A stretch of DNA of 64,000 nt from Candidatus Methylacidithermus pantelleriae (lineage in GTDB: Bacteria > Verrucomicrobiota > Verrucomicrobiia > Methylacidiphilales > Methylacidiphilaceae): the NCBI RefSeq assembly GCF_905250085.1, contig NZ_CAJNOB010000001.1:314624-378623 (forward strand). The letters are read 5' to 3'. The notes beneath the pieces were generated by a model, which was not told where the DNA came from, did not search any database, and saw nothing but the letters and a program-made list of their open reading frames with translations. The number at the start of each line of letters is the position of its first letter. Position 1 is the first letter of the stretch. Shown here piece by piece: positions 3,434 through 64,000 of this stretch. Both the position numbers and the translations under genes were made by a program.

Positions 3434-5284
3434 CGTAACTTCCCCAGGTTTTGAACCTTTGGAGTTGCAAGTCCAGGACTTATAAACACGTGCGTAGGGT
3501 CGATAAATGAAGGAGCTACAGGCAAACGATTTTTATAATCGGATCACATATCTTGTAAGTTGCAGGCATGTATGTCCAGGAGGTTTGTACCGATCCCAAC
3601 GGGAAGGTGTGCCGGCAGGTGGGGGGGTCGCCAGTCCTACCGCGTGGCGAAAGAGGGAAAAAGAAGGAATTGGGCCAATCGGAGCCGGCTTCCGGTTGAA
3701 ACGCAAAAGCTTTGTCGCACAAGCGTGAAAGGGCAGAAGCTTGTCCCCCTGGAGGCCTTACAGGTGGAGGAGCCGTTAGATAATTGGGGGGTTAGGGGAC
3801 GGGAAAAGGTGTCCCGAAGGTGGGGTCTAGCGGAAACCCTTGGGGGGGAGCCGGCTCGGACGAGAAGCGGCGGTTCAATAAAGCGATCGCTTTTGGGGCG
3901 GATTTTTTCCTCTTCCAGGTGTGCGTTGCAGGAGAAACCAGGCGGGAGGGTTTTAGGGGAACTGTGCGGGGTGCGGGCAAAAAACTTGGGGGAAGAGGGG
4001 CTCTGCCGGGCGAGGGATGGGTGACACGGGCTTTGGAGCTCGGTGGAGAAGAAAGTCTATCGGGAGGATTCCCTGCGGGGAACGAGTCTTGTGCTTTCTG
4101 ATTGATCCCGTGTGTCCTTTGAGGGGGTAGGGCCGGAGGGACTCGCCCGTTAGGGAGAGAGCCGGAATCACCGAGGGGATCGACGGCACCTTTTTCTTCT
4201 CGATTGCGACCCATGCTCAAGGGGTTTCCATCCATGGGGAGGTTTTGCGGACAAACCGGGCGGATTCGAAGACGCTTCTGCCGTTGCTCGTGACACTCCC
4301 ACGACGGTTAGCGATTCAAGAAAGAACGTTTCTTTTTGATGGAGGAAGGAAAAAGGCCGTGGAACTTGGAAGCACTCGAAGAAGAGGGGGGCTTGCGTAT
4401 CCTTGCTTGAGTCAAGCAAGGCCAGGCTCCAAGAGGTATTCTCGGGATCTTCCCAAAAGATCGCTAGCCTTGGCTTATCGAGCGGAGTCAAGTGATCGAG
4501 GTGGACGGCAATGGCACTAGATACGTCATTGCCGGAGAAAAATGGCCTAGGCCTCGAGCGATCGGGCCCGACGGGAAAGCGGGGTGGCTTCTCCCAAGGA
4601 GGGATTGGCCGAGATTCCGAAAACGATCGTGAAAAAAGCCGATCCGCTCAAACTGGGGAGCCCGGTCGGTTGGGGGCATTCTCTTGCCTCCAAGCCTATA
4701 AAAAAATAGTCTGCAGTACGGGTGCCGACCCTCGCGGCCGATTCTCGTGGAAACGGAAAGAGACGGGCGGATCCCCGAAGAGGAAGCGATCGATGGATGG
4801 TATCTGGCTGGAGATCCGTCTCTGCCGGCCGGAAACTTTGCCCGGAGGGGCCCTCACTCATTATGAGCGACTCGCCGTGGTTGAAATGGGGCTTTCCCCA
4901 GCCCAAAAGCTCCCTGGAAGTCTCTACCGTGTAACCTTGGGGGCCGGCGACCCGAGTCCGCAATCCCATCCGGATCTTTTTCCTGGCCTAGAGGCTCACA
5001 CCGCCGGCCTGTGAGCCCAACGGGTCTCGAAAGGCTTCCACGAACGGATCCCCCAAACCCTTCGCCGGCTTCAAGCCATCCGCGAAGCGCGGCTTCTGCC
5101 CGAAGGCAAATCTTAGAGCGCCGAATGCTTTGTGAAATACCCAGAGAAGGAAACCGAGCTACTCCAGAAAAGGTGGGCCTTCTTGCTCTTTTTTCTCAGA
5201 GGCCCAAGTGGATCAGCTAGGCAGGACGAAACCATTCAGTTGCTCGGCTAGAGCCATGTACGTTCAAACAGGGTCGAAGTTAAG
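3434..5284 (+). mobile_element. Degenerate IS1634-family element, copy A
   Basis: The element is about 1.85 kb. It is bounded by CGTAACTTCC at 3434-3443 and GAAGTTAAG at 5276-5284, whose reverse complement is CTTAACTTC: short imperfect terminal inverted repeats. The same architecture, with clear nucleotide similarity along the whole length, recurs at 38891-40746 and in reverse at 63072-64000. Size and transposase match the IS1634 family. No target-site duplication is obvious. All three copies are broken, so this is an old expansion. Confidence 0.7.
3568..5220 (+). pseudogene. IS1634-family transposase, multiply frameshifted
   Basis: The span would encode about 550 aa, the usual length of these DDE transposases. 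It starts at ATG 3568 with MYVQEVC..NGKVC, a typical IS1634 N-terminus, and ends at the TAG of KWIS* at 5220. Between these the reading frame changes many times. Recognisable pieces include ANRADSKTLLPLLVTL and ERTFLFDGG (4245-4360), the catalytic-core region seen in IS1634 proteins as xGNxxDxxTL and a metal-binding Asp strand. Further pieces are an HYERLAVVEMG piece near 4860-4890 and RQILERRMLCEIPREG near 5100-5150. Several apparent ORFs on both strands here are shadows of this ruin. No functional product is possible. Confidence 0.75.
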
Positions 5285-5830
5285 CTAGCTCCAACGCCTG
5301 CGGGATCCCCCTTTCATGCTTGTCCATTGTCCTTCGGGTACATGCCTTCGGCCAGGAACCCGGCGGCTCTCCCCAGCCCACCTTTGGTTCTTCTTTCCAG
5401 GAACACGCTGGGTGTTATCGGCCGAGACGGGAAGCGTCTGCATCGCCCGTTTTCCGGGGTTTATTGGGACCCTCCATTTCGTCAGGGGGCTCTTTATCGA
5501 TTCTTTCGATTTCCGGGCCTTTGAATGATGAGCTTTGACCATCGGCGTTAGCTCTTGTAGGCGGTCTCTGAGTGCTTCCGGCGCGAGTCGTCGCTGCAGG
5601 ATGGTGATGGCTTCCTTCCTGGGTGAACCCCCCTTTGCACGGCGTCCGCCAAAGGCGGCGTATGGCCGGCCATGGTTGCCAAGCCATCCACTCTCAAGGA
5701 AAAGAGCCTAGAAAAAACCCGGCTTTCGAAAGATCGTATCTTTGGAGTTCTGCAGGGATCGCCCGAAAAGGTCGAGGTTCTTTCTTGGTTAGATAGATCC
5801 TTCGTAAAAGATGATAAGAAGGGTTACCAT
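5285..5830. other. Non-coding stretch with possible gene remains
   Basis: No intact gene is visible. On the minus strand, 5285-5690 contains short open frames in different registers, one reading like ITILQRRLAPEALRDRL once frameshifts are allowed. This could be the tail of another decayed transposase, but the signal is too weak to name. Confidence 0.35.
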
Positions 5831-10457: not shown

Positions 10458-11387
10458 CTAGGCGCGCAAGCTTGCCACCTTGGCAAAAAGTCCCTCAATT
10501 TCCTTCGCCGTGCGCTGGAGGCATAAAAGTTCTTCTTGGGAAAGAGATAGCTCCTGGATTGCTTCGATTCCCTCTCTCCCCAAAAGCACCGGGAGTCCTA
10601 AGTAAGCCCCTCGGATCCCGTAGGGCCCGTCGCACCACACACTGGCAACCAGGATCCGCTTCTGGTCTAAGAGGATGGCTTCGACCATTTCAACGACCGA
10701 CACCGCGGGTGCGTAAGAGGCACTTCCTTTCTGGAGAAGTCGCACAATGTCGGCGCCTGCCTCGCGCGTTTTCCTCACCAGCTCGTCCCATTGGGCCTGG
10801 GAAATTTTTTCTTTGACGGGAACTCCCCCGACAAAGGTATAGCCTAAAAGCGGGAGCATCTGTTCCCCATGACTTCCCAGGACAAGGGTTGACACATCCT
10901 TGGGGGCGACTCCTAACTCTTGCCCAAGCAAGTAGCGAAGCCGGGCTGCGTCCAGTACTCCGGCCATTCCCAACACACGCTTTCGTGGGAATCCGGTCAC
11001 TTCGGCTACCAGCCACGTCATGACGTCTAACGGGTTGGTGACCACAAGGACCGTTGCGCCTGGCGCATAAGCTCGCAAGGTTGCCGCAACTTCTCGTATG
11101 GTGGCTGCATTTTGTTCCAATAGCTCTTCCCGAGTCATTCCCGGCTGTCGGGTTCGGCCGCAAGCGACCACCACAAGCTCGCTCCACAGACAAGCTTCCA
11201 GCTCGGTGGTTCCGCGGATCGTGCGGGTAAATCCCAGTATTGGGGAGGCATGCAGGATGTCTAATGCCTTACCTTCCGCAAGCCCGGGGACGACATCCAC
11301 GAGAACAACGTCGGCAAGATTTCGCTCGACGATTTTTGCGGCGATGGCAGTTCCGACTGCCCCGGCGCCGATTACAGCGACTTTCAT
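10458..11387 (-). CDS. mdh: Malate dehydrogenase, complete copy
   Basis: This is an NAD-dependent 2-hydroxyacid dehydrogenase of the LDH/MDH family, 309 aa. It shows GAGAVGTAIA at the N-terminus, VDVVPGLAEGKALDI, VTNPLDVMTW, and the catalytic His in LGSHGEQM. The mobile-loop residue that selects the substrate is Arg in TRQPGM, where lactate dehydrogenases carry Gln, so malate/oxaloacetate is the likely substrate. It would serve the TCA cycle in the cytosol. Codons 1 to about 292 lie inside the duplicated segment; only this copy keeps the true C-terminus (ending KVASLRA). It is divergent from the secreted-protein gene at 11648 across a 260-base intergenic region. Confidence 0.9.
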   Translation of the reverse strand: MKVAVIGAGAVGTAIAAKIVERNLADVVLVDVVPGLAEGKALDILHASPILGFTRTIRGTTELEACLWSELVVVACGRTRQPGMTREELLEQNAATIREVAATLRAYAPGATVLVVTNPLDVMTWLVAEVTGFPRKRVLGMAGVLDAARLRYLLGQELGVAPKDVSTLVLGSHGEQMLPLLGYTFVGGVPVKEKISQAQWDELVRKTREAGADIVRLLQKGSASYAPAVSVVEMVEAILLDQKRILVASVWCDGPYGIRGAYLGLPVLLGREGIEAIQELSLSQEELLCLQRTAKEIEGLFAKVASLRA

Positions 11388-13767
11388 CGGCCTTTTTTGC
11401 TACTGGGGACTGGCACGTGGGGAAAGAAAAAAAGTTGTTTCGGAAGTCTGCCTTCCGGTAGGACCCATCGGCGCCTTCCATTTCTTATTGAGGAATCCTG
11501 TGGGCAAAAGAGGCATCTCCCAGACAAAAAGGAGGCTGGGGAACGGAAACAAACGCAGGTCGGGAAAAGACGTGCAACGCTAGGGAAAAAATAAGCTTTG
11601 GTGGGCAAAAGAATTGACAGGAACTTTTCGAGGATGAAAATTGGGGCATGTCCTCCACCCTTAAGCCTGGTTTGGTGCGCCTGTCGGTTGTAGCGAGCCT
11701 TTTTCTAGGCACCCTTCTCTGGACTTCGCCCGCAGCTTGGGCTCATGGGGGAGGAGGGAGCGGTCCATCCTGCGCCATCTTAGAAAAAAGCGGCTACGCG
11801 GTTCACCTGGATATCTACGTTCAGGCTTCTCCGGGTTCTGCGGCCCTCTCGTACTGCCAGGATGTACCGGCAACAGGCCAACTAGTTCTGGCCTTTGACT
11901 TGATCACGGATGACCTCAAAAAAGTTCCCATTGCGATTGAGGTCAAGGACTCCTCCGGCAACGTTGTTTTGCGTGAGCCTGCCCGGAAGTACCCTGCGGG
12001 TGTGATCGCCTTACCGGGCCAGTTTTCCAAGGGGCGTTACGTTGCAACCTTGACGGTCATCGGTGCGAAGGATCCCAAGACGGGTGGTCCCCTACGCTTT
12101 GATTTTGTCGTCAACGCCGGTTCAACGGGCCTGCTCGTAGCTGTGGTCCCGTGGATTGGTCTGGGAGTTGCGGCCCTTGGAGCCCTGTGGGTCGGCTGGA
12201 GGGTTGCCAGGCGTCGCTCGGAACCGGAGCTTGAACAAAGCCCCGAAAAGCCCTAGGGTTGCCGCGGCTTTGCTCCTTTTGGTTACGTTTGCCCGCCTTT
12301 TTCGTCCTGTCCCTCTTCTTTGAAAGAGATTGTTTTGGCCGGATGGTTTGCTCCTAATCGGTGGAGATGATCCTTTTTGGGTCAGACTCTCGCCGCCCCC
12401 CATCTGATTGGGGTCCAACTGCGTCTTGGCTCTTTCCCGGCGCCTCGGTAGGGGTTTTAGCCGTTCTTTGCATGGCCATCTCTTTGGAGACACAGGAAAA
12501 GGTGACAGCGACGCCCTTCTTTGCGGCTGCGTTTCCTCTCTCCTACGATCCCAAACCTGGCGCTTCTCTTTCCGAGCCCCATACGGTTACTATCCGGTTC
12601 ACTGAGCCGATTGCGCGAAGCTTCACCAGCCTTTTTTGGGAACGGGGGACCCTCCGCGGTTCGCTTGACCGGCTCCATCTTCTTTCGGACGGGCAGGGGC
12701 TTCAGGGCGTATTGGGTGCAAACCGGCCACTCTCTCCGGGTCTTTATTGGGTCCGGTGGCAGGCTCTTTCGCTGCGGGATGGAACCTTTAGCCAGGGAGG
12801 CTTTCCGGTATACTGGAAAGCGGAATCGCCGTATCCTGCCTCTCGTTTACGTCCTTGGGTTGAGGTACACCGGGTGAGTTTTTGGCCCACGGTTTGGGTC
12901 AGTTATGCGGCCCATCTGGGCTACGCGTTTGTTTTGGGGTCTGCCCTCGCGAGCGTACTATTTACCCGGTTACGAACCGGAGTTCCCCCGCTCGGTCTAG
13001 GGTGGAGCCTATTGCAGAAATGGAAAAAAAAGGGTGGGGTTTTCGCTTGGTTCGGTTTTCTTGTGGCGTTGGCGGGAGCAGCCGGGGAGGCTCTTTTGCC
13101 CGTGTGGGACGGCAAGGAATTTCTGGGGATTTCCCCAGGGGCTGCCTTACGTCTTTATCTTGGCACATCACCGTTTTGGGGAGGTACCGCTCGGCTTTTC
13201 GGCGCCTTAGTTGCATTTCCTTCGCTCTGGATTGCCTACAGGCACTTTGCCACTCCACGGAAAACGTTTTCTTTGGAACTTGTCGCGGTCCTTTCTCTGG
13301 TCGCGGCGGAAGTTGTCCCAGAAGGGTGGGCTTACCTAGCTCCATGGTGGGAAATCGGTAGAGGTTTTCTCTTTGCTTCGACGGAAGCGTGGCTAGGGCT
13401 TCTCCTTGTTTCAGCTTGGGTCCTGGCTCCTGTCATCCGCAAAGCGGAGAATCGCTCCGTTGCATCCTGGCTACTGGGCAAACTTGGGGTTTTTTTGGTA
13501 CTCCTCTTGGGAGGAGGAGTGGCGGTTGGAACGTGGTTTTGGATAGAACTCTTTGGGAAGACTGTGGATCTTTGGCGCTCGGAATGGGGACAAGATCTTG
13601 CTCGAGCGGTGATGCTTTTTGGATGCCTCGTTCTGGTCCGTTCCTACCATGTGTTCCGCGTTGGGCCCTGCTTAATGGGAGAGGAAAGCGTCTTTGCTCC
13701 GATCGGAAAAAGACTGGGACTATCGTTTGGGAAACGCCAGGCCCCTCGAAGGTTACCCCTCCCGATC
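10512..13767. repeat. Tandem direct duplication, unit 1
   Basis: The unit is 3256 bp and is repeated directly downstream. It runs from inside mdh (GCGCTGGAGG at 10512) to inside the copD-like gene (CCCGATCG at 13761-13768). All encoded proteins in both units are identical except near the last ~130 bases, where I count 11 substitutions between 13635 and 13762 and the matching stretch of unit 2. At the junction only the single G at 13768 fits both parents, so the duplication did not arise between long homologous repeats. Confidence 0.92.
11648..12256 (+). CDS. Secreted, membrane-anchored protein of the copper locus, copy 1
   Basis: The protein is 202 aa. Residues 1-33 are a signal peptide (LFLGTLLWTSPAAWA), and the mature protein begins HGGGGSGPSC. 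A beta-rich periplasmic domain of about 120 residues with two cysteines (SC and SYCQDV) follows, then a transmembrane helix near 160-182 and a short basic cytoplasmic tail. I do not recognise a named family. The N-terminal His and the Cys residues, together with its place immediately before a CopC/CopD protein, suggest a role in periplasmic copper handling; this is inference. A TTGACA hexamer at 11614-11619 may be a promoter element. The copy at 14904 encodes an identical protein. Confidence 0.75.
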   Translation: MSSTLKPGLVRLSVVASLFLGTLLWTSPAAWAHGGGGSGPSCAILEKSGYAVHLDIYVQASPGSAALSYCQDVPATGQLVLAFDLITDDLKKVPIAIEVKDSSGNVVLREPARKYPAGVIALPGQFSKGRYVATLTVIGAKDPKTGGPLRFDFVVNAGSTGLLVAVVPWIGLGVAALGALWVGWRVARRRSEPELEQSPEKP

Positions 13768-13782
13768 GCGCTGGAGGCATAA
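12361..13782 (+). pseudogene. Truncated copy of the CopC-CopD fusion gene
   Basis: The first ~468 codons match the intact gene at 15617, including the CopC-like domain and the CopD-type membrane domain. At 13768 the frame runs into mdh sequence and stops after five foreign codons (ALEA and stop at 13782). About 580 C-terminal residues are lost. The membrane part is complete, so a shortened protein could still be made and work as a simple CopC-CopD protein, but it is most simply the left-over end of the tandem duplication. It also has substitutions absent from the intact copy, for example Gly for Glu at the VGPCL/VEPCL position. Confidence 0.8.
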
Positions 13783-14643
13783 AAGTTCTTCTTGGGAAAG
13801 AGATAGCTCCTGGATTGCTTCGATTCCCTCTCTCCCCAAAAGCACCGGGAGTCCTAAGTAAGCCCCTCGGATCCCGTAGGGCCCGTCGCACCACACACTG
13901 GCAACCAGGATCCGCTTCTGGTCTAAGAGGATGGCTTCGACCATTTCAACGACCGACACCGCGGGTGCGTAAGAGGCACTTCCTTTCTGGAGAAGTCGCA
14001 CAATGTCGGCGCCTGCCTCGCGCGTTTTCCTCACCAGCTCGTCCCATTGGGCCTGGGAAATTTTTTCTTTGACGGGAACTCCCCCGACAAAGGTATAGCC
14101 TAAAAGCGGGAGCATCTGTTCCCCATGACTTCCCAGGACAAGGGTTGACACATCCTTGGGGGCGACTCCTAACTCTTGCCCAAGCAAGTAGCGAAGCCGG
14201 GCTGCGTCCAGTACTCCGGCCATTCCCAACACACGCTTTCGTGGGAATCCGGTCACTTCGGCTACCAGCCACGTCATGACGTCTAACGGGTTGGTGACCA
14301 CAAGGACCGTTGCGCCTGGCGCATAAGCTCGCAAGGTTGCCGCAACTTCTCGTATGGTGGCTGCATTTTGTTCCAATAGCTCTTCCCGAGTCATTCCCGG
14401 CTGTCGGGTTCGGCCGCAAGCGACCACCACAAGCTCGCTCCACAGACAAGCTTCCAGCTCGGTGGTTCCGCGGATCGTGCGGGTAAATCCCAGTATTGGG
14501 GAGGCATGCAGGATGTCTAATGCCTTACCTTCCGCAAGCCCGGGGACGACATCCACGAGAACAACGTCGGCAAGATTTCGCTCGACGATTTTTGCGGCGA
14601 TGGCAGTTCCGACTGCCCCGGCGCCGATTACAGCGACTTTCAT
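13753..14643 (-). pseudogene. Truncated copy of malate dehydrogenase
   Basis: This is identical to mdh at 10458-11387 over the first ~291 codons, then broken at the duplication junction. The last residues of the real enzyme are replaced by DREG and a stop at 13753, shortening the protein from 309 to 296 aa. The lost part is the final helix, so the product may be unstable, although all catalytic residues remain. It faces the second copy of the secreted-protein gene exactly as the complete mdh faces the first. Confidence 0.82.
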
Positions 14644-17023
14644 CGGCCTTTTTTGCTACTGGGGACTGGCACGTGGGGAAAGAAAAAAAGTTGTTTCGGA
14701 AGTCTGCCTTCCGGTAGGACCCATCGGCGCCTTCCATTTCTTATTGAGGAATCCTGTGGGCAAAAGAGGCATCTCCCAGACAAAAAGGAGGCTGGGGAAC
14801 GGAAACAAACGCAGGTCGGGAAAAGACGTGCAACGCTAGGGAAAAAATAAGCTTTGGTGGGCAAAAGAATTGACAGGAACTTTTCGAGGATGAAAATTGG
14901 GGCATGTCCTCCACCCTTAAGCCTGGTTTGGTGCGCCTGTCGGTTGTAGCGAGCCTTTTTCTAGGCACCCTTCTCTGGACTTCGCCCGCAGCTTGGGCTC
15001 ATGGGGGAGGAGGGAGCGGTCCATCCTGCGCCATCTTAGAAAAAAGCGGCTACGCGGTTCACCTGGATATCTACGTTCAGGCTTCTCCGGGTTCTGCGGC
15101 CCTCTCGTACTGCCAGGATGTACCGGCAACAGGCCAACTAGTTCTGGCCTTTGACTTGATCACGGATGACCTCAAAAAAGTTCCCATTGCGATTGAGGTC
15201 AAGGACTCCTCCGGCAACGTTGTTTTGCGTGAGCCTGCCCGGAAGTACCCTGCGGGTGTGATCGCCTTACCGGGCCAGTTTTCCAAGGGGCGTTACGTTG
15301 CAACCTTGACGGTCATCGGTGCGAAGGATCCCAAGACGGGTGGTCCCCTACGCTTTGATTTTGTCGTCAACGCCGGTTCAACGGGCCTGCTCGTAGCTGT
15401 GGTCCCGTGGATTGGTCTGGGAGTTGCGGCCCTTGGAGCCCTGTGGGTCGGCTGGAGGGTTGCCAGGCGTCGCTCGGAACCGGAGCTTGAACAAAGCCCC
15501 GAAAAGCCCTAGGGTTGCCGCGGCTTTGCTCCTTTTGGTTACGTTTGCCCGCCTTTTTCGTCCTGTCCCTCTTCTTTGAAAGAGATTGTTTTGGCCGGAT
15601 GGTTTGCTCCTAATCGGTGGAGATGATCCTTTTTGGGTCAGACTCTCGCCGCCCCCCATCTGATTGGGGTCCAACTGCGTCTTGGCTCTTTCCCGGCGCC
15701 TCGGTAGGGGTTTTAGCCGTTCTTTGCATGGCCATCTCTTTGGAGACACAGGAAAAGGTGACAGCGACGCCCTTCTTTGCGGCTGCGTTTCCTCTCTCCT
15801 ACGATCCCAAACCTGGCGCTTCTCTTTCCGAGCCCCATACGGTTACTATCCGGTTCACTGAGCCGATTGCGCGAAGCTTCACCAGCCTTTTTTGGGAACG
15901 GGGGACCCTCCGCGGTTCGCTTGACCGGCTCCATCTTCTTTCGGACGGGCAGGGGCTTCAGGGCGTATTGGGTGCAAACCGGCCACTCTCTCCGGGTCTT
16001 TATTGGGTCCGGTGGCAGGCTCTTTCGCTGCGGGATGGAACCTTTAGCCAGGGAGGCTTTCCGGTATACTGGAAAGCGGAATCGCCGTATCCTGCCTCTC
16101 GTTTACGTCCTTGGGTTGAGGTACACCGGGTGAGTTTTTGGCCCACGGTTTGGGTCAGTTATGCGGCCCATCTGGGCTACGCGTTTGTTTTGGGGTCTGC
16201 CCTCGCGAGCGTACTATTTACCCGGTTACGAACCGGAGTTCCCCCGCTCGGTCTAGGGTGGAGCCTATTGCAGAAATGGAAAAAAAAGGGTGGGGTTTTC
16301 GCTTGGTTCGGTTTTCTTGTGGCGTTGGCGGGAGCAGCCGGGGAGGCTCTTTTGCCCGTGTGGGACGGCAAGGAATTTCTGGGGATTTCCCCAGGGGCTG
16401 CCTTACGTCTTTATCTTGGCACATCACCGTTTTGGGGAGGTACCGCTCGGCTTTTCGGCGCCTTAGTTGCATTTCCTTCGCTCTGGATTGCCTACAGGCA
16501 CTTTGCCACTCCACGGAAAACGTTTTCTTTGGAACTTGTCGCGGTCCTTTCTCTGGTCGCGGCGGAAGTTGTCCCAGAAGGGTGGGCTTACCTAGCTCCA
16601 TGGTGGGAAATCGGTAGAGGTTTTCTCTTTGCTTCGACGGAAGCGTGGCTAGGGCTTCTCCTTGTTTCAGCTTGGGTCCTGGCTCCTGTCATCCGCAAAG
16701 CGGAGAATCGCTCCGTTGCATCCTGGCTACTGGGCAAACTTGGGGTTTTTTTGGTACTCCTCTTGGGAGGAGGAGTGGCGGTTGGAACGTGGTTTTGGAT
16801 AGAACTCTTTGGGAAGACTGTGGATCTTTGGCGCTCGGAATGGGGACAAGATCTTGCTCGAGCGGTGATGCTTTTTGGATGCCTCGTTCTTGTCCGTTCC
16901 TACCATGTGTTCCGCGTTGAGCCCTGCTTAATGGGAGAGGAAAGTGTCTTTGCTCCAATCGGGAAAAGACTGGGACGATGGTTTAGGAAACGCCAGGTTC
17001 CTCGAAGGTTACTCCTCCCGATC
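13768..17023. repeat. Tandem direct duplication, unit 2
   Basis: This is the second unit of the 3256-bp direct repeat, carrying the truncated mdh, the intact secreted-protein gene and the start of the intact copD-like gene. After about 17024 the sequence (GGTTGGCTTC) continues the real copD frame and is not present in unit 1, which marks the right boundary. Confidence 0.92.
14904..15512 (+). CDS. Secreted, membrane-anchored protein of the copper locus, copy 2
   Basis: The protein is identical over all 202 residues to the one at 11648: signal peptide, periplasmic Cys-containing beta domain, one C-terminal transmembrane helix. This copy is the one directly upstream (about 105 bases) of the complete CopC-CopD fusion, so it is likely co-expressed with it. 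Two identical intact copies would raise the dose of this protein. Confidence 0.75.
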   Translation: MSSTLKPGLVRLSVVASLFLGTLLWTSPAAWAHGGGGSGPSCAILEKSGYAVHLDIYVQASPGSAALSYCQDVPATGQLVLAFDLITDDLKKVPIAIEVKDSSGNVVLREPARKYPAGVIALPGQFSKGRYVATLTVIGAKDPKTGGPLRFDFVVNAGSTGLLVAVVPWIGLGVAALGALWVGWRVARRRSEPELEQSPEKP

Positions 17024-18766
17024 GGTTGGCTTCTAGGGTCGTTTCCCCTAGAATGTGTTCTCTGCGCGGTTTTCCTCTTTTTTGGAGCCCGCCTAGAGGT
17101 GGATCCTGCGGCCTCCTTTGTTGTGAGCAGCCCATCCAAAAGATGGAGCCAAACGGCAACAGATGGGAAGCTACGGCTCCTCTGGGAGGAGTGCCGAGCG
17201 GATCGGATGGACGTAGAGTTCCTCCCAGACTCCCCTGGAGAGATCGAGCTTTTTTCGGTGCCTCTCCTTTCCCTTTCAAACGCGTCTAACCCTTTGGCAA
17301 AAAAAACCTTTGTTGGCCATCAGGATGGGTACCGGCTGTGGTCGTTTCCCGTCAAGCTTCTCGAGCGCCCCGGAAAATGGACTCTTGAAATTCAATGGAT
17401 AGATGCTAGCCAGTCGGCGCGACAAAGTGTTGTGTGCTTTTCATGGCCACCGTGGGATTCGCCGGCCAGTGGCCGGTTTGAGGCTCAGGACAGGTGGGGG
17501 AAGTCGCTAATGGGCCTCGGAGCAGTAGCCGTTGCAGGTGTGCTGGTTTCCCAATGGGTCATATTGCGACGGATACGGGCAAGCGTTTGGAGGGAGCTTG
17601 CGGAAGGAAAATCTCCTGGGGTCGATCCTCATTTTTCCTTTCCCATTCGTTCTTGGCTGTGGGGTTTGGGCGTAACGGCTATTGTCCTTTTTGTCGCGAG
17701 CTTTGTTGTGAACAAGCGCTTGAAAACGGATTTTCAGCGGGACTGCCGGAGGCAAGGGGGGCTCTGGGCGTTTTCCTATCCTGTGAACGAGGGCAGAGCC
17801 CTTTCAGACAAAGCTTGTCTTGGGTGTACCTTGGAAGCTTCCTTGGAGCATTTTTCCCTTTTTGAGGCCTACCGGTTTTTTTTGCGGCCCACCGAGCTCG
17901 ACACCGTGTTTTCCTGGGAACCCCGCGAGCCCATTGCAGGTCGGCCCCTCAAAGTGGAGGTGACACTTAAGGAGCAAGAGATCTTTCCCTTTCCGTATCC
18001 CTCTTTTGAGCACCGAACGCAAATGGACGAGGTCGGCCGAGAACCCTGGCAAGTATTTATCGTGGACAAAACCTTCTCTTACTTCTGCCGGATGAGTCTT
18101 TCCGACGCGAATTTTAGGCTCGATGCCCAAGGTCTCCCAGCCATTGCTTTCCAATGGATTCCTCCCAGACCTGGCACCTATGGAATTTGTGTCGCTTATC
18201 GAAGTCATGGCCATGAACGAGAGCCCTACTTCCTTTTGGAAGTAAAAAAAACCAAACGACCGGACGGCCAGGAGGCGGTCCGAAAGGATGACTCTACCCT
18301 GTTGGTTTCGGGGGCTCCTCGGGTTCGATGTGGCAAATATTGGGTAAGCTTGCAGGCACCCCGCACGATCCGTGCCGGTCATACTTGCCGGCTTTCGTTG
18401 AGCGTGCGGGATGGTCACGGCAGGAGCGTTCTTTTAGAGCCATGTGGCGGGGCTGCGGTTTGCGGGGTGGCCATTCGTTCCGATCTCCAACAATGGGTTC
18501 CTTTTCAAGGCCGGCCAAAGCTAAAGGGAAGCGTTTTTTTCCAGCGCAGTTTTCCGCGCTGGATGGGAATGCCCTATCATGCAACGCCCGAGCGTTTTGT
18601 GGGTCTTGTTGAGTTACCGCTCAATTTTGTCCTCGGGGGAGCCTACCGGCTTTGCCTGCAATTTTTTGAGGGAACGCAAACCTATACAGCCGTTTTCCCT
18701 TTGGAAGTGGAAGGCGCTATGCGCCCGTGGTGGTTACCCCCTAACCGGGCCAGGCCTCGATTCTAA
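15617..18766 (+). CDS. copD: CopC-CopD-like copper protein with a ~580-aa C-terminal extension
   Basis: The 1049-aa protein starts at GTG 15617 or ATG 15623. The order of parts is: a hydrophobic signal/anchor near 22-41; a CopC-like domain near 50-150 (TVTIRFTEPIARSF and LSPGLYWVRWQALSLRDG, compare the CopC motif SxDGHPxxG); a CopD-type multi-helix membrane domain near 170-455. A further helix lies near 475-495, a periplasmic-looking domain at ~500-620, two more helices near 632-652 and 675-695, and a large C-terminal domain to 1049. The C-terminal domain contains several Cys and His residues (SYFCRM, CVAYRSHGHERE, CGGAAVCG). CopC binds copper in the periplasm and CopD is thought to bring it inward. 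The extension is not part of the family and I do not recognise it; it could be a metal-receiving or partner-binding module. Confidence 0.75.
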   Translation: MEMILFGSDSRRPPSDWGPTASWLFPGASVGVLAVLCMAISLETQEKVTATPFFAAAFPLSYDPKPGASLSEPHTVTIRFTEPIARSFTSLFWERGTLRGSLDRLHLLSDGQGLQGVLGANRPLSPGLYWVRWQALSLRDGTFSQGGFPVYWKAESPYPASRLRPWVEVHRVSFWPTVWVSYAAHLGYAFVLGSALASVLFTRLRTGVPPLGLGWSLLQKWKKKGGVFAWFGFLVALAGAAGEALLPVWDGKEFLGISPGAALRLYLGTSPFWGGTARLFGALVAFPSLWIAYRHFATPRKTFSLELVAVLSLVAAEVVPEGWAYLAPWWEIGRGFLFASTEAWLGLLLVSAWVLAPVIRKAENRSVASWLLGKLGVFLVLLLGGGVAVGTWFWIELFGKTVDLWRSEWGQDLARAVMLFGCLVLVRSYHVFRVEPCLMGEESVFAPIGKRLGRWFRKRQVPRRLLLPIGWLLGSFPLECVLCAVFLFFGARLEVDPAASFVVSSPSKRWSQTATDGKLRLLWEECRADRMDVEFLPDSPGEIELFSVPLLSLSNASNPLAKKTFVGHQDGYRLWSFPVKLLERPGKWTLEIQWIDASQSARQSVVCFSWPPWDSPASGRFEAQDRWGKSLMGLGAVAVAGVLVSQWVILRRIRASVWRELAEGKSPGVDPHFSFPIRSWLWGLGVTAIVLFVASFVVNKRLKTDFQRDCRRQGGLWAFSYPVNEGRALSDKACLGCTLEASLEHFSLFEAYRFFLRPTELDTVFSWEPREPIAGRPLKVEVTLKEQEIFPFPYPSFEHRTQMDEVGREPWQVFIVDKTFSYFCRMSLSDANFRLDAQGLPAIAFQWIPPRPGTYGICVAYRSHGHEREPYFLLEVKKTKRPDGQEAVRKDDSTLLVSGAPRVRCGKYWVSLQAPRTIRAGHTCRLSLSVRDGHGRSVLLEPCGGAAVCGVAIRSDLQQWVPFQGRPKLKGSVFFQRSFPRWMGMPYHATPERFVGLVELPLNFVLGGAYRLCLQFFEGTQTYTAVFPLEVEGAMRPWWLPPNRARPRF

Positions 18767-21650: not shown

Positions 21651-21842
21651 CCCTCTAGCAAAGTTCCACGAGAAACGTCTTAAGGCTGGATGGGCGTTTA
21701 GGAAGAGCGTGAAGGGGTCGCTGCAGCGGAGTGAATCTTTTCCCTGCAGCGATCCTTGTTGTGGGCCCGTACGGTAGTCGCTCTTTTTTTCAAAACGGAC
21801 CTTTTGACAACAATGGGGTCTCGCAGGTGGAAAGGAAGATCC

Positions 21843-22817
21843 ATGATCGAAGCAAGGGCCAGAAAGATTGGCGTGGGTCTGGGATTAGTGATTGGCTTGG
21901 CGATGGTCGGTTTAACGATTCCCGTTTCTAGCTTTGCCAAGGGCGTTTTACGTGTTTGTGCGGACCCGGCGGACCTTCCGTTTTCCAACCGGGCCAAGGA
22001 GGGATTGGAAAATCGCATTGCGGAGGTGGTGGCTTCGGCCCTCGACTGGGATCTCCAATACTACTGGTGGCCTCACCAGCGCGGTCTTGTGCGGAAGACT
22101 CTCCAGGCAAGGCACTGCGATGTCTTAATTGGCGTTCCCTCCGACTATGATCCGGTTTTGACGACGCGTCCTTACTATCGCAGTACCTATGTACTTGCCT
22201 ACCGGTCGGATCGAGGGATAACCATTCGCTCTCTCCAGGATCCGGTTCTGTCCCAATGGAAGATTGGGGTCCACTGGGATACCCCCGGACACGTTCTTCT
22301 GGCTGAGCGAGGTCTTACCCGCCATCTGGTTCCCTACTCTTTGATCTACGATCCTGTTTTTCATCCGGAAAACTATCCGGGTCGGATTATGGAGGATCTT
22401 CTTTCCGATAAGATAGATGCGGCGGTCGTTTGGGGGCCCATCGCCGGGTATTTTGCAAAAAAGAAAGGAGCTCCTGTGGCCATTTTCCCCTTGGATCGCG
22501 AGCCATGCCGCGTCCCGCTGAGCTTCAATATCTCGATGGGGGTTCGAAAAGGGGATTTTGTGCTGAAGGAAAAGCTCGAATCTGTGTTAACCGCTAAAAG
22601 TCAAGAGATTCGGAAGATCCTCGAAGAGTATGGCGTGCCGATACTTGAGCCGTTACCCCAGAAGCCCAAACGGGAAAAGCATCCTCACGGACCTGTTCAT
22701 TCTCATTCGCACACCGCCGACCAAGCATGGGTGCGGCCGACGGCCGTCATGGTTTCTAATAACGCAGGTGCCGGCGTTGGGCCGGGATCCAACACGCCTC
22801 GAGGTTTTGTTTGTTGA
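21843..22817 (+). CDS. xoxJ: XoxJ-type periplasmic binding protein
   Basis: From ATG 21843, preceded by AAGGAAG, the protein is 324 aa; the frame extends upstream to 21756 without a ribosome site. A signal peptide (LVIGLAMVGLTIPVSSFAKG) is followed by a solute-binding-protein fold with the typical VLRVCADPADLPFSN start, DVLIGVPSDYDPVLTTRPYYRSTYV and DAAVVWGPIAGYFA. XoxJ proteins are found next to XoxF and are thought to activate or bind the apo-enzyme; a transport role is not known. The C-terminus carries a His-rich stretch (HPHGPVHSHSHTAD) that could bind metal. A second XoxJ-like domain is fused to the cytochrome in the next gene. Confidence 0.85.
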   Translation: MIEARARKIGVGLGLVIGLAMVGLTIPVSSFAKGVLRVCADPADLPFSNRAKEGLENRIAEVVASALDWDLQYYWWPHQRGLVRKTLQARHCDVLIGVPSDYDPVLTTRPYYRSTYVLAYRSDRGITIRSLQDPVLSQWKIGVHWDTPGHVLLAERGLTRHLVPYSLIYDPVFHPENYPGRIMEDLLSDKIDAAVVWGPIAGYFAKKKGAPVAIFPLDREPCRVPLSFNISMGVRKGDFVLKEKLESVLTAKSQEIRKILEEYGVPILEPLPQKPKREKHPHGPVHSHSHTADQAWVRPTAVMVSNNAGAGVGPGSNTPRGFVC

Positions 22818-22846
22818 ATGAGCCAATCTAGCCGTGGAACAAACGT

Positions 22847-23830
22847 ATGAAGTCCAGCATGAAAAACGGTGTTCGCAGATACCTTGGGCGAGAGAATACC
22901 CTCCCTAACGTCGGGTTTGGATGGGTAGTGGTCGGTGTAGCAAGCTTGGGACTCTTTTTTGTTCCTCTCGGTGGCTACGGGGCCACTAAGAACCCGTATC
23001 AAAACGATCCTAAGGCAATTGAGGAAGGCAAAAAGATCTGGTTTAGCGTTGGTTGTACAGGATGTCATGGAGCGGGAGGCGGAGGTGGGATGTGTCCGTC
23101 CGTGGGCGATGATATATGGGTCTTTGGGGGGGACGATGAGACGCTGTTCCGCTTGATCAAAGGACAGATCCCCCAGCAAACGATGCCACGGACCTTTGGC
23201 CAAATTTTAAGCGACGACCAAATTTGGAAAGTTCTTGCCTTCGTGCGAACGTTGAAATTTGCGGGGGGAAGTTCTGGCAGTGCCACGGGAGTTCCTGGGG
23301 CTTCCATGGATGCCCACGGTCCAACTACGGTCTCCATCCCCATGGAGGAAAGGTCCTGTGCCGTCATCGCGGCTAACCGGAGGCTTCTTACCACCTTGCT
23401 TCCCTCGGTGCCCGGGTATCGACGGAGCTATGTTTGTGTGTTGAGCTCGAATCTTTCCGTGGATTCGATTGAAGGGTTAGTCTCAAAGAAGGCTCAGGTC
23501 AGAGCAGAGAAAGGATTCGGGGAAGCTCTGGCAAAGCGATGGAAACTCCCGGTTCAGGCGTTTGATGATTCGGTTGACGCTTTTGAGACTCCGGTCGAAG
23601 AGATTTTAGCGGGAAAGCTAGACGCAGCGATTTTGTGGGCCCCTATGGCGGGGTTTGCTTTGTGGCACCTGGATAAAGGACACAAGTTGAAGGTGTTGCC
23701 TTTGAAAGAGACAGCGGAGCCACCGGAAGGTTATCGAGGCCAAAGCGGGGGTTCAGGTTACGTTGAGAAATGTGCGCAGGCGATCGCTGCGGTTCTGGGT
23801 TCCTACGGCGTAAAGCCTTCGGGCTCTTAA
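22847..23830 (+). CDS. xoxGJ: Cytochrome c / XoxJ fusion, electron acceptor of XoxF
   Basis: The protein is 327 aa. An N-terminal export signal spans about 22-45 (FGWVVVGVASLGLFFVPLG). A class I cytochrome c domain follows with heme site C70-T-G-C73-H74 and axial Met113 in QTMPRTFG. A Gly/Ser linker near 140-155 leads to a XoxJ-like binding-protein domain from about 165 to the end (CAVIAANRRLLTT, SVDAFETPVEEILAGK, AAILWAPMAGFALW). A natural cytochrome cGJ fusion is known to accept electrons from XoxF in Methylacidiphilum fumariolicum, and this gene has the same layout. The J part is shorter and more divergent than the separate XoxJ upstream. The gene starts 29 bases after xoxJ. Confidence 0.9.
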   Translation: MKSSMKNGVRRYLGRENTLPNVGFGWVVVGVASLGLFFVPLGGYGATKNPYQNDPKAIEEGKKIWFSVGCTGCHGAGGGGGMCPSVGDDIWVFGGDDETLFRLIKGQIPQQTMPRTFGQILSDDQIWKVLAFVRTLKFAGGSSGSATGVPGASMDAHGPTTVSIPMEERSCAVIAANRRLLTTLLPSVPGYRRSYVCVLSSNLSVDSIEGLVSKKAQVRAEKGFGEALAKRWKLPVQAFDDSVDAFETPVEEILAGKLDAAILWAPMAGFALWHLDKGHKLKVLPLKETAEPPEGYRGQSGGSGYVEKCAQAIAAVLGSYGVKPSGS

Positions 23831-38890: not shown

Positions 38891-40746
38891 CTTAACTTCC
38901 TGAGGTTTTTACCTTTGTAGTTGCAAGTCAAGGATTTATGGAAAAGTGTGTAGGGTCGATAGGGAAATCGGTTGTGAATCCATGCTTTTAGGCAGGAGAG
39001 TGCTATGTGTCGCAGGTTGTCGGCATGTATGTGCACGAGCCTTGTAGCTATCGCAACGGAAAGGTGTACCGGCGGTGGGGGTTCGGCCGTCCTCCCGGGT
39101 AGGGAAAAAGGTGAAGAGAAGGAATTGGGCCAATGGGAGCCGGCTCCCGGTTGGAGCCCAAAAGCTTTTTCGCGCAAGTGTAAAAAGGGCAGAAGCTTGT
39201 CCTGCTGGAGGGCTTACAGGTGGGGACGAGGCGTTCGATCAAGGGGGTTCGGGCTACGGGAAGAGGTGTCGCAAAGCTGGGGTCTAGAGGAAGTGCTTGC
39301 AGGGGTGAGAAGGGAACGGAAGGCGCGGTTCGTTACAGCGGTTGCTTTTGGGGCGGTTTTTTTCCGCTCTTTCCAAGTGTGCGTTGCGCGAGAAACCAGG
39401 GGGAGGGTTTTAGGGGAGCTGTGCGGGGTGCGGGCAAAAAACTTGGGGGAAGAGGGGCTCTGTCGGGCGAGGGATGAGTGACACGGGCTTTGGAGCTCGG
39501 TGGAAAAGAAAGTCTATCGGGAGGATTCCCTGCGGGGAACGAGTCTTGTGCTTTCTGATTGATCCCGTGTGTCCTTTGAGGGGGTAGGGGCGGAGGGACT
39601 GGCCCATTATGGAGAGAGCCGCGATCACCGAGGGGATCAGCGGCACCTTTTTCTTCTCGATTGCGACCCATGCTTAAGGGGTTCCCATCCATCGGGAGGT
39701 TTTGGGGGCAAACCGGGCGGATTCGAAGAGGCTTCTGGGGTTACTCGTGACCGTCCAGCGACGGTTGGGGATCCAAAAAAGAACGTTTCTTTTTGATGGA
39801 GGAAGGAAAAACCCCACGGAGTTTGGAAGCGCTGGAAGGAGAGGAGGCTTCCGTATGTCGCCTTGAGCTAAGAGAGGTCAAGCTCTAAGAGGGATTGTCG
39901 CGGTCTTTGCAAAAGAGTGGGAGCTTTGGCTTACCGACCGGAGTTAAGTCATGAACACGGAAGGCAGTGGGGTTCGAGCGGTGATTGCCGGAAAAAATGC
40001 CCTAGGCCTTCAGCGATCGAGCCCGCCGGGAAAGCCGGATGGCTTCTCCCAAGGAGGTATTGGCCCGAGATTCCCAAAACGATCACGAAAAAAAGCCGAT
40101 CCGCTCAAACCGGGGAGTGCGGGCGGTTGGGCCGCTCTCTTGGCTCCAAGCCCATACATACTTTGGAGTAGGGGGTCGACCCTGGTGGCCGCTTCTGGTC
40201 GAAACGTAAAGAGAGGAGCGGACGCAAGGAGAGGAACCGGTCAATGGATGGTATCCCCTGGAGATCCGTCTCCCCCGGCCGGAAACTTTGCCCGGAGAGT
40301 CTCTCACTCATTATGAGCGAGTCGCCCGAGGTTGAAAGAGTGCTTTTCCATAGCTGAAAAAGCTCCCTCGAAGTCTGTCGCGTGCATCGCTGGCTCCTGC
40401 CGCTTGGTGAACCGAGTCCGCAATCCCATCCAGATCTTTTTCCTGGCCTAAGGGCTGACACCCCCGGCCGGCGAGCCAACGGATCTCGAAAGGCTTCCAG
40501 AAAGTAGTCTCCGAAACCCTTGGTCGCCTTGAAGCTATCCGCGTAGCGCGGCTCCTGCCCGAAGGCAAATGTTAGAGCGTCGAATGCTTTGTGAAATAGG
40601 CAAAAAAAGGAAACCGAGCTATTGCAAAAAAGATGGGCCCGCTTCCTCTTGTTTCTCACGGAGCCCCAGTGGATAACGCAGGCAGGAGGAAGCCGTTCAG
40701 TCCTTCGGGTGCGGCCATTTATCTTCAAAAACAGTGTCGAAGTTAC
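38891..40746 (+). mobile_element. Degenerate IS1634-family element, copy B
   Basis: The length is 1856 bases, almost the same as copy A (1851). The left end is CTTAACTTCC (38891-38900) and the right end GAAGTTACG (40738-40746), giving the same short imperfect inverted repeat as copy A. The two copies align from end to end by eye but differ at very many positions and carry different frame breaks. They therefore decayed independently after insertion. Confidence 0.7.
39025..40676 (+). pseudogene. IS1634-family transposase, multiply frameshifted
   Basis: It starts MYVHEPC..RNGKVYRR at ATG 39025, the same N-terminus as copy A, and ends about 40676, where a point change has removed the stop that copy A has after KWIS. 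Typical pieces are SGGFGGKPGGFEEASG near 39690 (degenerate substrate-site region) and RTFLFDGGRK near 39785. SQGGIGPRFPKRSRKKADP lies near 40045, and PGNFARRVSHSL with HYERVA-like remains near 40280-40320. About 550 codons are needed for the full protein, and many frame changes are required to read it. Confidence 0.72.
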
Positions 40747-40868
40747 GTTAGGCTTATTCCGAGCCGGTCGGACAAAAAGGCTAGGCCCGATCGACTGAGC
40801 TCTAGCAAATCGAAAGGACCCGGTCTTTTTGGATAAAAGATCTTTCCGGCAGGATCAAACGGGGATCC

Positions 40869-63071: not shown

Positions 63072-64000
63072 CAACTTTCGACACGGTTCGGAGGTAACCG
63101 ATTCGAGCCGCAAGAGTTACTGGTTTCGTCCTGCCTACCGAATCCACCTGGGCCTGTGAGAAAAACGAGGCAGAAAGACTCACTTTTTTGGAGTAGCTCA
63201 GTTTTCTTCTCTGGGTATCTCGCAAAGCATGCGGCGCTCTAACATTTGCCTTGGGACAAAAGCCGCGCTTCACGGATGGCTTGAAGCCGGCGAAGGGCTT
63301 AGGGGATCTGTTTGTGGAAGCCTTTCGAGATCCATTGGGCTTGGGAGGCGGGCGGTGTGAGCCCTTAGGCCACGAAAAAGATCCGGACGGGATTGAGGAG
63401 TCGGGCCCCTCCGGCCCCACCAAGGATAAACGGAAAAGACTTCCAGGGAGCTTTTGGGCTCGGGAAAAGGCCCCATTTCAATCTTGGCGAGCCGCTCATA
63501 ATGACTGAGGGCCTCCCCGGGCAACGCTTCCGGCAGGGGGAGAGACGGGGCTGCACGAGACACCATCCATCGATTCCTTCCTCTTCTGGGATCCGCCCGT
63601 CTCTTTACGTGTCCACCAGAAGCGGCTGCGAGGGTCGCCCCGTTCAAAGTATCTATGGGCTTGGAGGCAAGAGAGCGACCCAGCCGACCGGGCTTCCCAG
63701 TTTGACTGGATCGGTCTTTTGCGCGACGGTTTTGGGAATTTCGGCCAACAGTTCCTTCGCACGAGCCACCTGGCTTCCCAGTCGGGTCGGATCGCTCAAG
63801 GCCTAGGCCATTTTTCCCCGGCAATCACCGATCGAGCCCCATTCCTTTCCGCCTCCTTAACGTAACTCCGGTCGGCAAACCGAAGCTCCCAATCTTTTGG
63901 GAAGATTTCGACAATGGCTCTTGGAGCTTGGCCTCTCGAAGCTCAAGTGAGATACGCAAGCCCTCACCACTTTCAGCGCTTCCAAGTTCCCAGGGCTTTT
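63072..64000 (-). mobile_element. Degenerate IS1634-family element, copy C, cut by window end
   Basis: This is the reverse-oriented right half of the same element as copies A and B. Its terminus CAACTTTCGAC at 63072-63082 matches the short inverted repeat imperfectly. The flank GCAGGACGAAACC (reverse complement at 63121-63135) is shared with copy A. The rest of the element lies beyond the window. Confidence 0.65.
63135..64000 (-). pseudogene. IS1634-family transposase C-terminal half, frameshifted
   Basis: Minus-strand frames give PGKNGLGLERSDPTGKPGG, RLGRSLASKPIDTL, HYERLAKIEMGPFPEPKSS and LFRGLRAHTARLPSPMD. These align with matching parts of copies A and B. The stop corresponds to the TAG at 63135-63137 (after a one-base shift relative to copy A). 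One 184-codon open frame at 63270-63824 is the longest surviving piece but covers only part of the protein. Confidence 0.65.

Follow-up and report, generated by a model that had tools for sequence, protein, structure and literature searches.

A twice-printed 3.1-kb segment with two differing tails as a candidate branch point of sequence variants in a short-read metagenome assembly

De Bruijn metagenome assemblies are known for collapsed repeats and strain bulges: similar sequences share edges of the graph, differences survive only where the paths part, and most strain differences are reported to be collapsed as bulges by metaSPAdes (review, PMC8021871). The locus described here resembles these cases, except that its shared edge is printed twice within one contig and has a one-loop (tandem) topology. 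A second resemblance is to bacterial tandem duplications that arose recently through an illegitimate junction, where there are two direct copies, border genes that are intact once and hardly any homology where the copies meet. Such a duplication, if plain and recent, would have identical tails, whereas the tails found here differ by 8%. A third likeness is to tandem repeats that evolve in concert through gene conversion, which also have an identical body with divergence near the edge, but in the present locus only one of the two edges diverges.

The window, that is the whole stretch of 64,000 nucleotides that was analysed, covers positions 314624-378623 of the 401,379-bp contig 1 of a 71-contig genome which is alone in its genus. 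Ungapped comparison of two direct units in this window (10512-13767 and 13768-17023) gave 11 substitutions and no indels, and the blastn alignment of the pair spans 3,257 bp and also contains 11 mismatches. The first 3,123 bp are base-for-base the same in both units at the DNA and the protein level. This shared segment is printed first at 10512-13634 and again at 13768-16890, and it contains most of a malate dehydrogenase gene, a pmoD-like gene and a CopC-CopD-like frame up to codon 424. The differences begin at codon 425 of that frame and are found at positions 13635, 13664, 13689, 13701, 13707, 13721, 13724, 13729, 13742, 13743 and 13757, all in the last 133 of the 3,256 bp, for which the chance under random spread is about 5e-16. 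We refer to 13635-13767, which joins the start of unit 2, as tail 1 and to the matching 16891-17023, which runs into the intact 3' part of copD, as tail 2. A preliminary description of this DNA had already placed 11 substitutions at the end of the unit, and our comparison confirms this and shows its unit borders to be right to the base; the range which it gave for them, 13635-13762, starts correctly and is slightly wide at its end. The roughly 3.1 kb said there to encode identical proteins before the tail proved to be identical as DNA as well, and our base-by-base alignment contained no scattered differences in the first 3,123 bp of the unit, where an assembly made with k=127 could not display any.

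The differences become denser toward the junction, from which they lie 133, 104, 79, 67, 61, 47, 44, 39, 26, 25 and 11 bp away, and the sequence is clean on either side of the tail. The two edges of the unit are unequal, with no difference over at least 127 bp at the left edge and 11 in 133 bp at the right. Transitions outnumber transversions by 8 to 3 (P=0.009 against random substitutions). Five of the changes, each taken singly, are synonymous and the others alter an amino acid; the excess of synonymous changes does not reach significance (P about 0.1-0.26). Both tails keep an open reading frame, which would happen by chance with P about 0.6. The changes are not strand-coordinated and, going from tail 2 to tail 1, they are mostly from A/T to G/C (8/10). 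At the junction itself (13767/13768) there is a microhomology of 1 bp, an ambiguous G, and the flanks are otherwise unrelated, with 22-25% identity in 40 bp. Only the two units match when the whole genome is searched for another copy or a source of tail 1; two weak hits of 25 bp were attributed to chance.

The end of one unit is thus joined to the start of the next, and each of the border genes is whole only once. The malate dehydrogenase is intact in unit 1 (10458-11387, minus strand, 309 aa; Pfam PF00056/PF02866, NF004863) and truncated in unit 2, where a second frame of 296 aa (13753-14643, minus strand; Pfam and comparison with relatives) has lost its last part at the junction. The reverse holds for copD, as the CopC-CopD-like frame of unit 1 is cut off at the junction (12361-13782, plus strand, 473 aa; Pfam) and that of unit 2 extends to its full length of 1,049 aa (15617-18766, plus strand; Pfam). 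Between the border genes lies a PmoD-like membrane-anchored protein of 202 aa, encoded at 11648-12256 on the plus strand (PDB 6cpd PmoD, E 5.8e-6) with a second copy at 14904-15512 in unit 2. Homologues of this protein are present in all 12 relatives, and the malate dehydrogenase is a single-copy gene in the same 12, being split in two pieces in one of them; there, the two pieces overlap (G007 C1:1374613-1375511) and a frameshift is probably responsible. For the 1,049-aa CopCD protein, no homologue was found at E<=1e-3 in 29 related genomes and none was confirmed in a collection of genome contigs; CopC (PF04234) was not found in the 12 members of the family. A search of a plasmid collection also gave no match. 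As no CopCD homologues were found, the ancestral tail, and with it the polarity of the changes, cannot be set.

The contig belongs to the PQ17 MAG of 'Ca. Methylacidithermus pantelleriae', which derives from a geothermal soil metagenome sequenced on Illumina MiSeq (2x300, Nextera XT), for which MEGAHIT v1.0.3 is named as the assembler and CheckM gave no strain heterogeneity (PMC8170126). Our comparison of the assembly covered 1.735 of its 2.460 Mb (71%). 27 pairs of contigs were observed to have exactly 127 bp in common, almost all at contig ends, and the assembly therefore carries the signature of a de Bruijn graph with k=127. MEGAHIT prints each k-mer once. A few contigs cross branch points (C21:444-570, C11:1248-1374 and C67:1157-1283) and internal repeats of at least 128 bp occur as well, which together point to an assembler that walks paths, or to re-assembly at k=127 at a later stage. 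Exact repeats of at least 128 bp number only six in the 1.735 Mb, with lengths of 3,123 (this locus), 368, 242, 194, 163 and 148 bp. Metagenome fragments are usually shorter than 1,000 bp (review, PMC8021871), and the 3,123-bp repeat alone is beyond the normal bridging of 2x300 read pairs, the small repeats being within reach.

At k=127 the locus resolves into a graph of four edges: one of 1,639 bp with the left flank, one of 3,123 bp that is used twice, a loop of 387 bp that holds tail 1 and the junction, and one of 2,237 bp with tail 2 and the right flank. The same graph arises from a true tandem, from a single copy together with junction molecules, or from a circle of 3,256 bp, and the contig therefore cannot show that tails 1 and 2 lie on one molecule. 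No layout other than a tandem, which this repeat has, lets a graph walker print a segment twice in the absence of reads that bridge it. The identity of the 3,123 bp is also partly imposed by the method, as isolated differences would be collapsed. In the preliminary description it was argued that an even clock cannot produce such a distribution of differences. This is correct for the printed sequence and is not transferable to the genome. To treat the 3.1 kb of identity as an evolutionary observation is unsafe, since at k=127 this stretch amounts to one edge of the graph, printed twice.

Taken together, we consider that the pattern reflects the branching of two sequence variants in the graph of a short-read assembly, where strain-level alleles were joined, with a probability of roughly 0.57. 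The assembler would have followed a path from the left flank through the segment to tail 1, and then through the segment again to tail 2 and the right flank. The single 3,123-bp edge would be walked twice in this way and its two printings would be identical by construction, while any isolated true differences within it would have been collapsed as bubbles. The tails would escape such collapse, since the paths through them run to different places and leave no bubble to be closed; differences are therefore visible at the end of the unit only. Tails 1 and 2 would be two alleles of the CopD linker that differ by about 8% and most likely come from strains of the species living side by side, and one of these alleles would be carried by molecules in which the end of copD is joined to the end of malate dehydrogenase. 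Two parts of this reading are inferred, namely the assignment of the alleles to different cells and the double printing of the segment by a loop-walking step.

Collapse alone was also considered as the cause of the pattern. Uniform divergence followed by bubble collapse was simulated in 4,000 runs at each of eight rates. A left edge free of differences, combined with 11 of them within the last 140 bp, never appeared, and this candidate was rejected. The failure of the simulation implies that the tail is unusually diverged in its own right, so that a distinct tail allele is needed. At the left edge, a true match is required over 127 bp or more. Tail 1 is thus best read as a genuine second sequence, with two alleles of the CopD linker, on one chromosome or in two strains, as the simplest reading. 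This agrees with one of the two options offered in the preliminary description, namely that the truncated copD end comes from a second allele or strain, which fits best given the 8:3 ratio of transitions to transversions, the absence of indels, the open frame and the linkage to the junction haplotype. Furthermore, the junction is linked to tail 1 and not to tail 2, which argues against a library chimera of the main sequence.

Signs of a mixture of strains elsewhere in the assembly are not decisive. Against the preferred reading, CheckM gave no strain heterogeneity for the MAG, the named assembler MEGAHIT prints each k-mer once, and no full-length allelic contig was found in the 0.97 Mb compared. 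Partial allele-like pairs are formed by C28 and C49 (94% over 1,181 bp) and by C5 and C22 (97.6% over 1,032 bp). C28 (1-1181) and C49 (1-1179) start with the same 127-mer, remain alike through genes that resemble those for polysaccharide export and then part; their starts could be either paralogues or strain alleles. The end of C5 resembles a transposase by eye.

The strongest alternative to the branching of two alleles is a real and recent tandem duplication in one genome with a mosaic right end, which we regard as possible though distinctly less probable. Here, sequence from a diverged strain would have entered by ordinary homologous recombination, while the duplication formed or later, and would have replaced what lies from about 16891 rightward or supplied tail 1; the 3.1 kb would stay identical and the last 133 bp would differ by about 8%. 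The 11 linked differences of the junction haplotype suit a duplication too, as they speak against a library chimera made from tail 2, and the presence of one intact malate dehydrogenase (in unit 1), one intact copD (in unit 2) and a junction with 1-bp microhomology is what a tandem would leave behind. Since each of the 12 relatives has one copy of the malate dehydrogenase, the duplication, if real, would be young and confined to this lineage. Against this, the contig does not place the two tails on the same molecule, and two independent events that end no more than 133 bp apart would be required.

Gene conversion, the other option in the preliminary description, would have kept an older duplication identical and failed near the edge of homology. 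Conversion falls off near the ends of homology, and the crowding of the differences toward the junction is in line with it. Divergence would then be predicted at both edges; the left edge is equally near to an end of homology and the malate dehydrogenase of unit 2 is truncated there, but 127 bp or more of this edge are free of differences. Identity in the middle of the unit is not measurable in a k=127 assembly. Conversion is disfavoured, and we consider this explanation unlikely.

It is slightly more doubtful still that errors of sequencing or of the consensus, at a graph edge of low coverage, produced the 11 differences. An edge as short as 387 bp could arise from a few reads, but 8 of the 11 changes are transitions, indels are absent and clean sequence flanks the tail; the open frame weighs little, as it would often be kept by chance. 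Least probable of all is a real tandem duplication in which error-prone replicative repair left a one-sided burst of changes while forming the junction: the cluster abuts the junction on one side only and thickens toward it, and the microhomology is compatible with replicative end-joining, but the changes lack strand coordination and run mostly from A/T to G/C, and 11 changes in 133 bp far exceed the known rates of error-prone polymerases.

With the branching of two alleles as the preferred reading, the locus combines ordinary strain variation with a known property of metagenome assembly from short reads, and the contrast between tail and body says little about the evolution of the copies. In MAGs built from short reads, perfect identity of long tandem copies comes in part from the assembler, and therefore arguments from a clock or from gene conversion should not be made on such copies without read depth. 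The sample probably contains a second linked haplotype, in which copD is joined to malate dehydrogenase. Should the duplication be real, two copies of the pmoD-like gene, whose product is probably a copper protein, would lie closely upstream of xoxF.

A PQQ-dependent methanol dehydrogenase (TIGR03075) is located downstream of the unit and is taken to be xoxF; the PmoD-like gene adjoins the CopC-CopD fusion just upstream of it. The paper on the MAG gives one pmoD only, MPNT_60058 near pmoCAB, and apparently the PmoD-like gene of the window was left uncounted there (PMC8170126). After the methanol dehydrogenase, the region 21756-23830 encodes a periplasmic binding protein, followed by an ORF (22847-23830) which, by eye, joins a cytochrome c to a second, shorter part that resembles a binding protein. 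This ORF may represent a fusion of the XoxG/J type next to a separate XoxJ; the MAG paper describes such fusions for Methylacidiphilum alone (PMC8170126).

In addition, two families of more diverged repeats were noticed. Repeats of about 1.85 kb, 70-81% alike, occur in the window at 3436-5288, 38893-40751 and 63121-64000 and recur throughout the genome (C1, C2, C12, C34, C51 and others). By eye, they may be decayed insertion sequences, as their broken frames resemble the transposase pieces at the end of C5. The second family consists of repeats of about 2.3 kb that are 64-73% alike, and the stretches read contain at least seven of them (G000 C1:87525-89821, C1:345902-348178, C12:3562-5836, C12:95378-97659, C12:121964-124278, C12:136690-138984 and C34:77437-79704).
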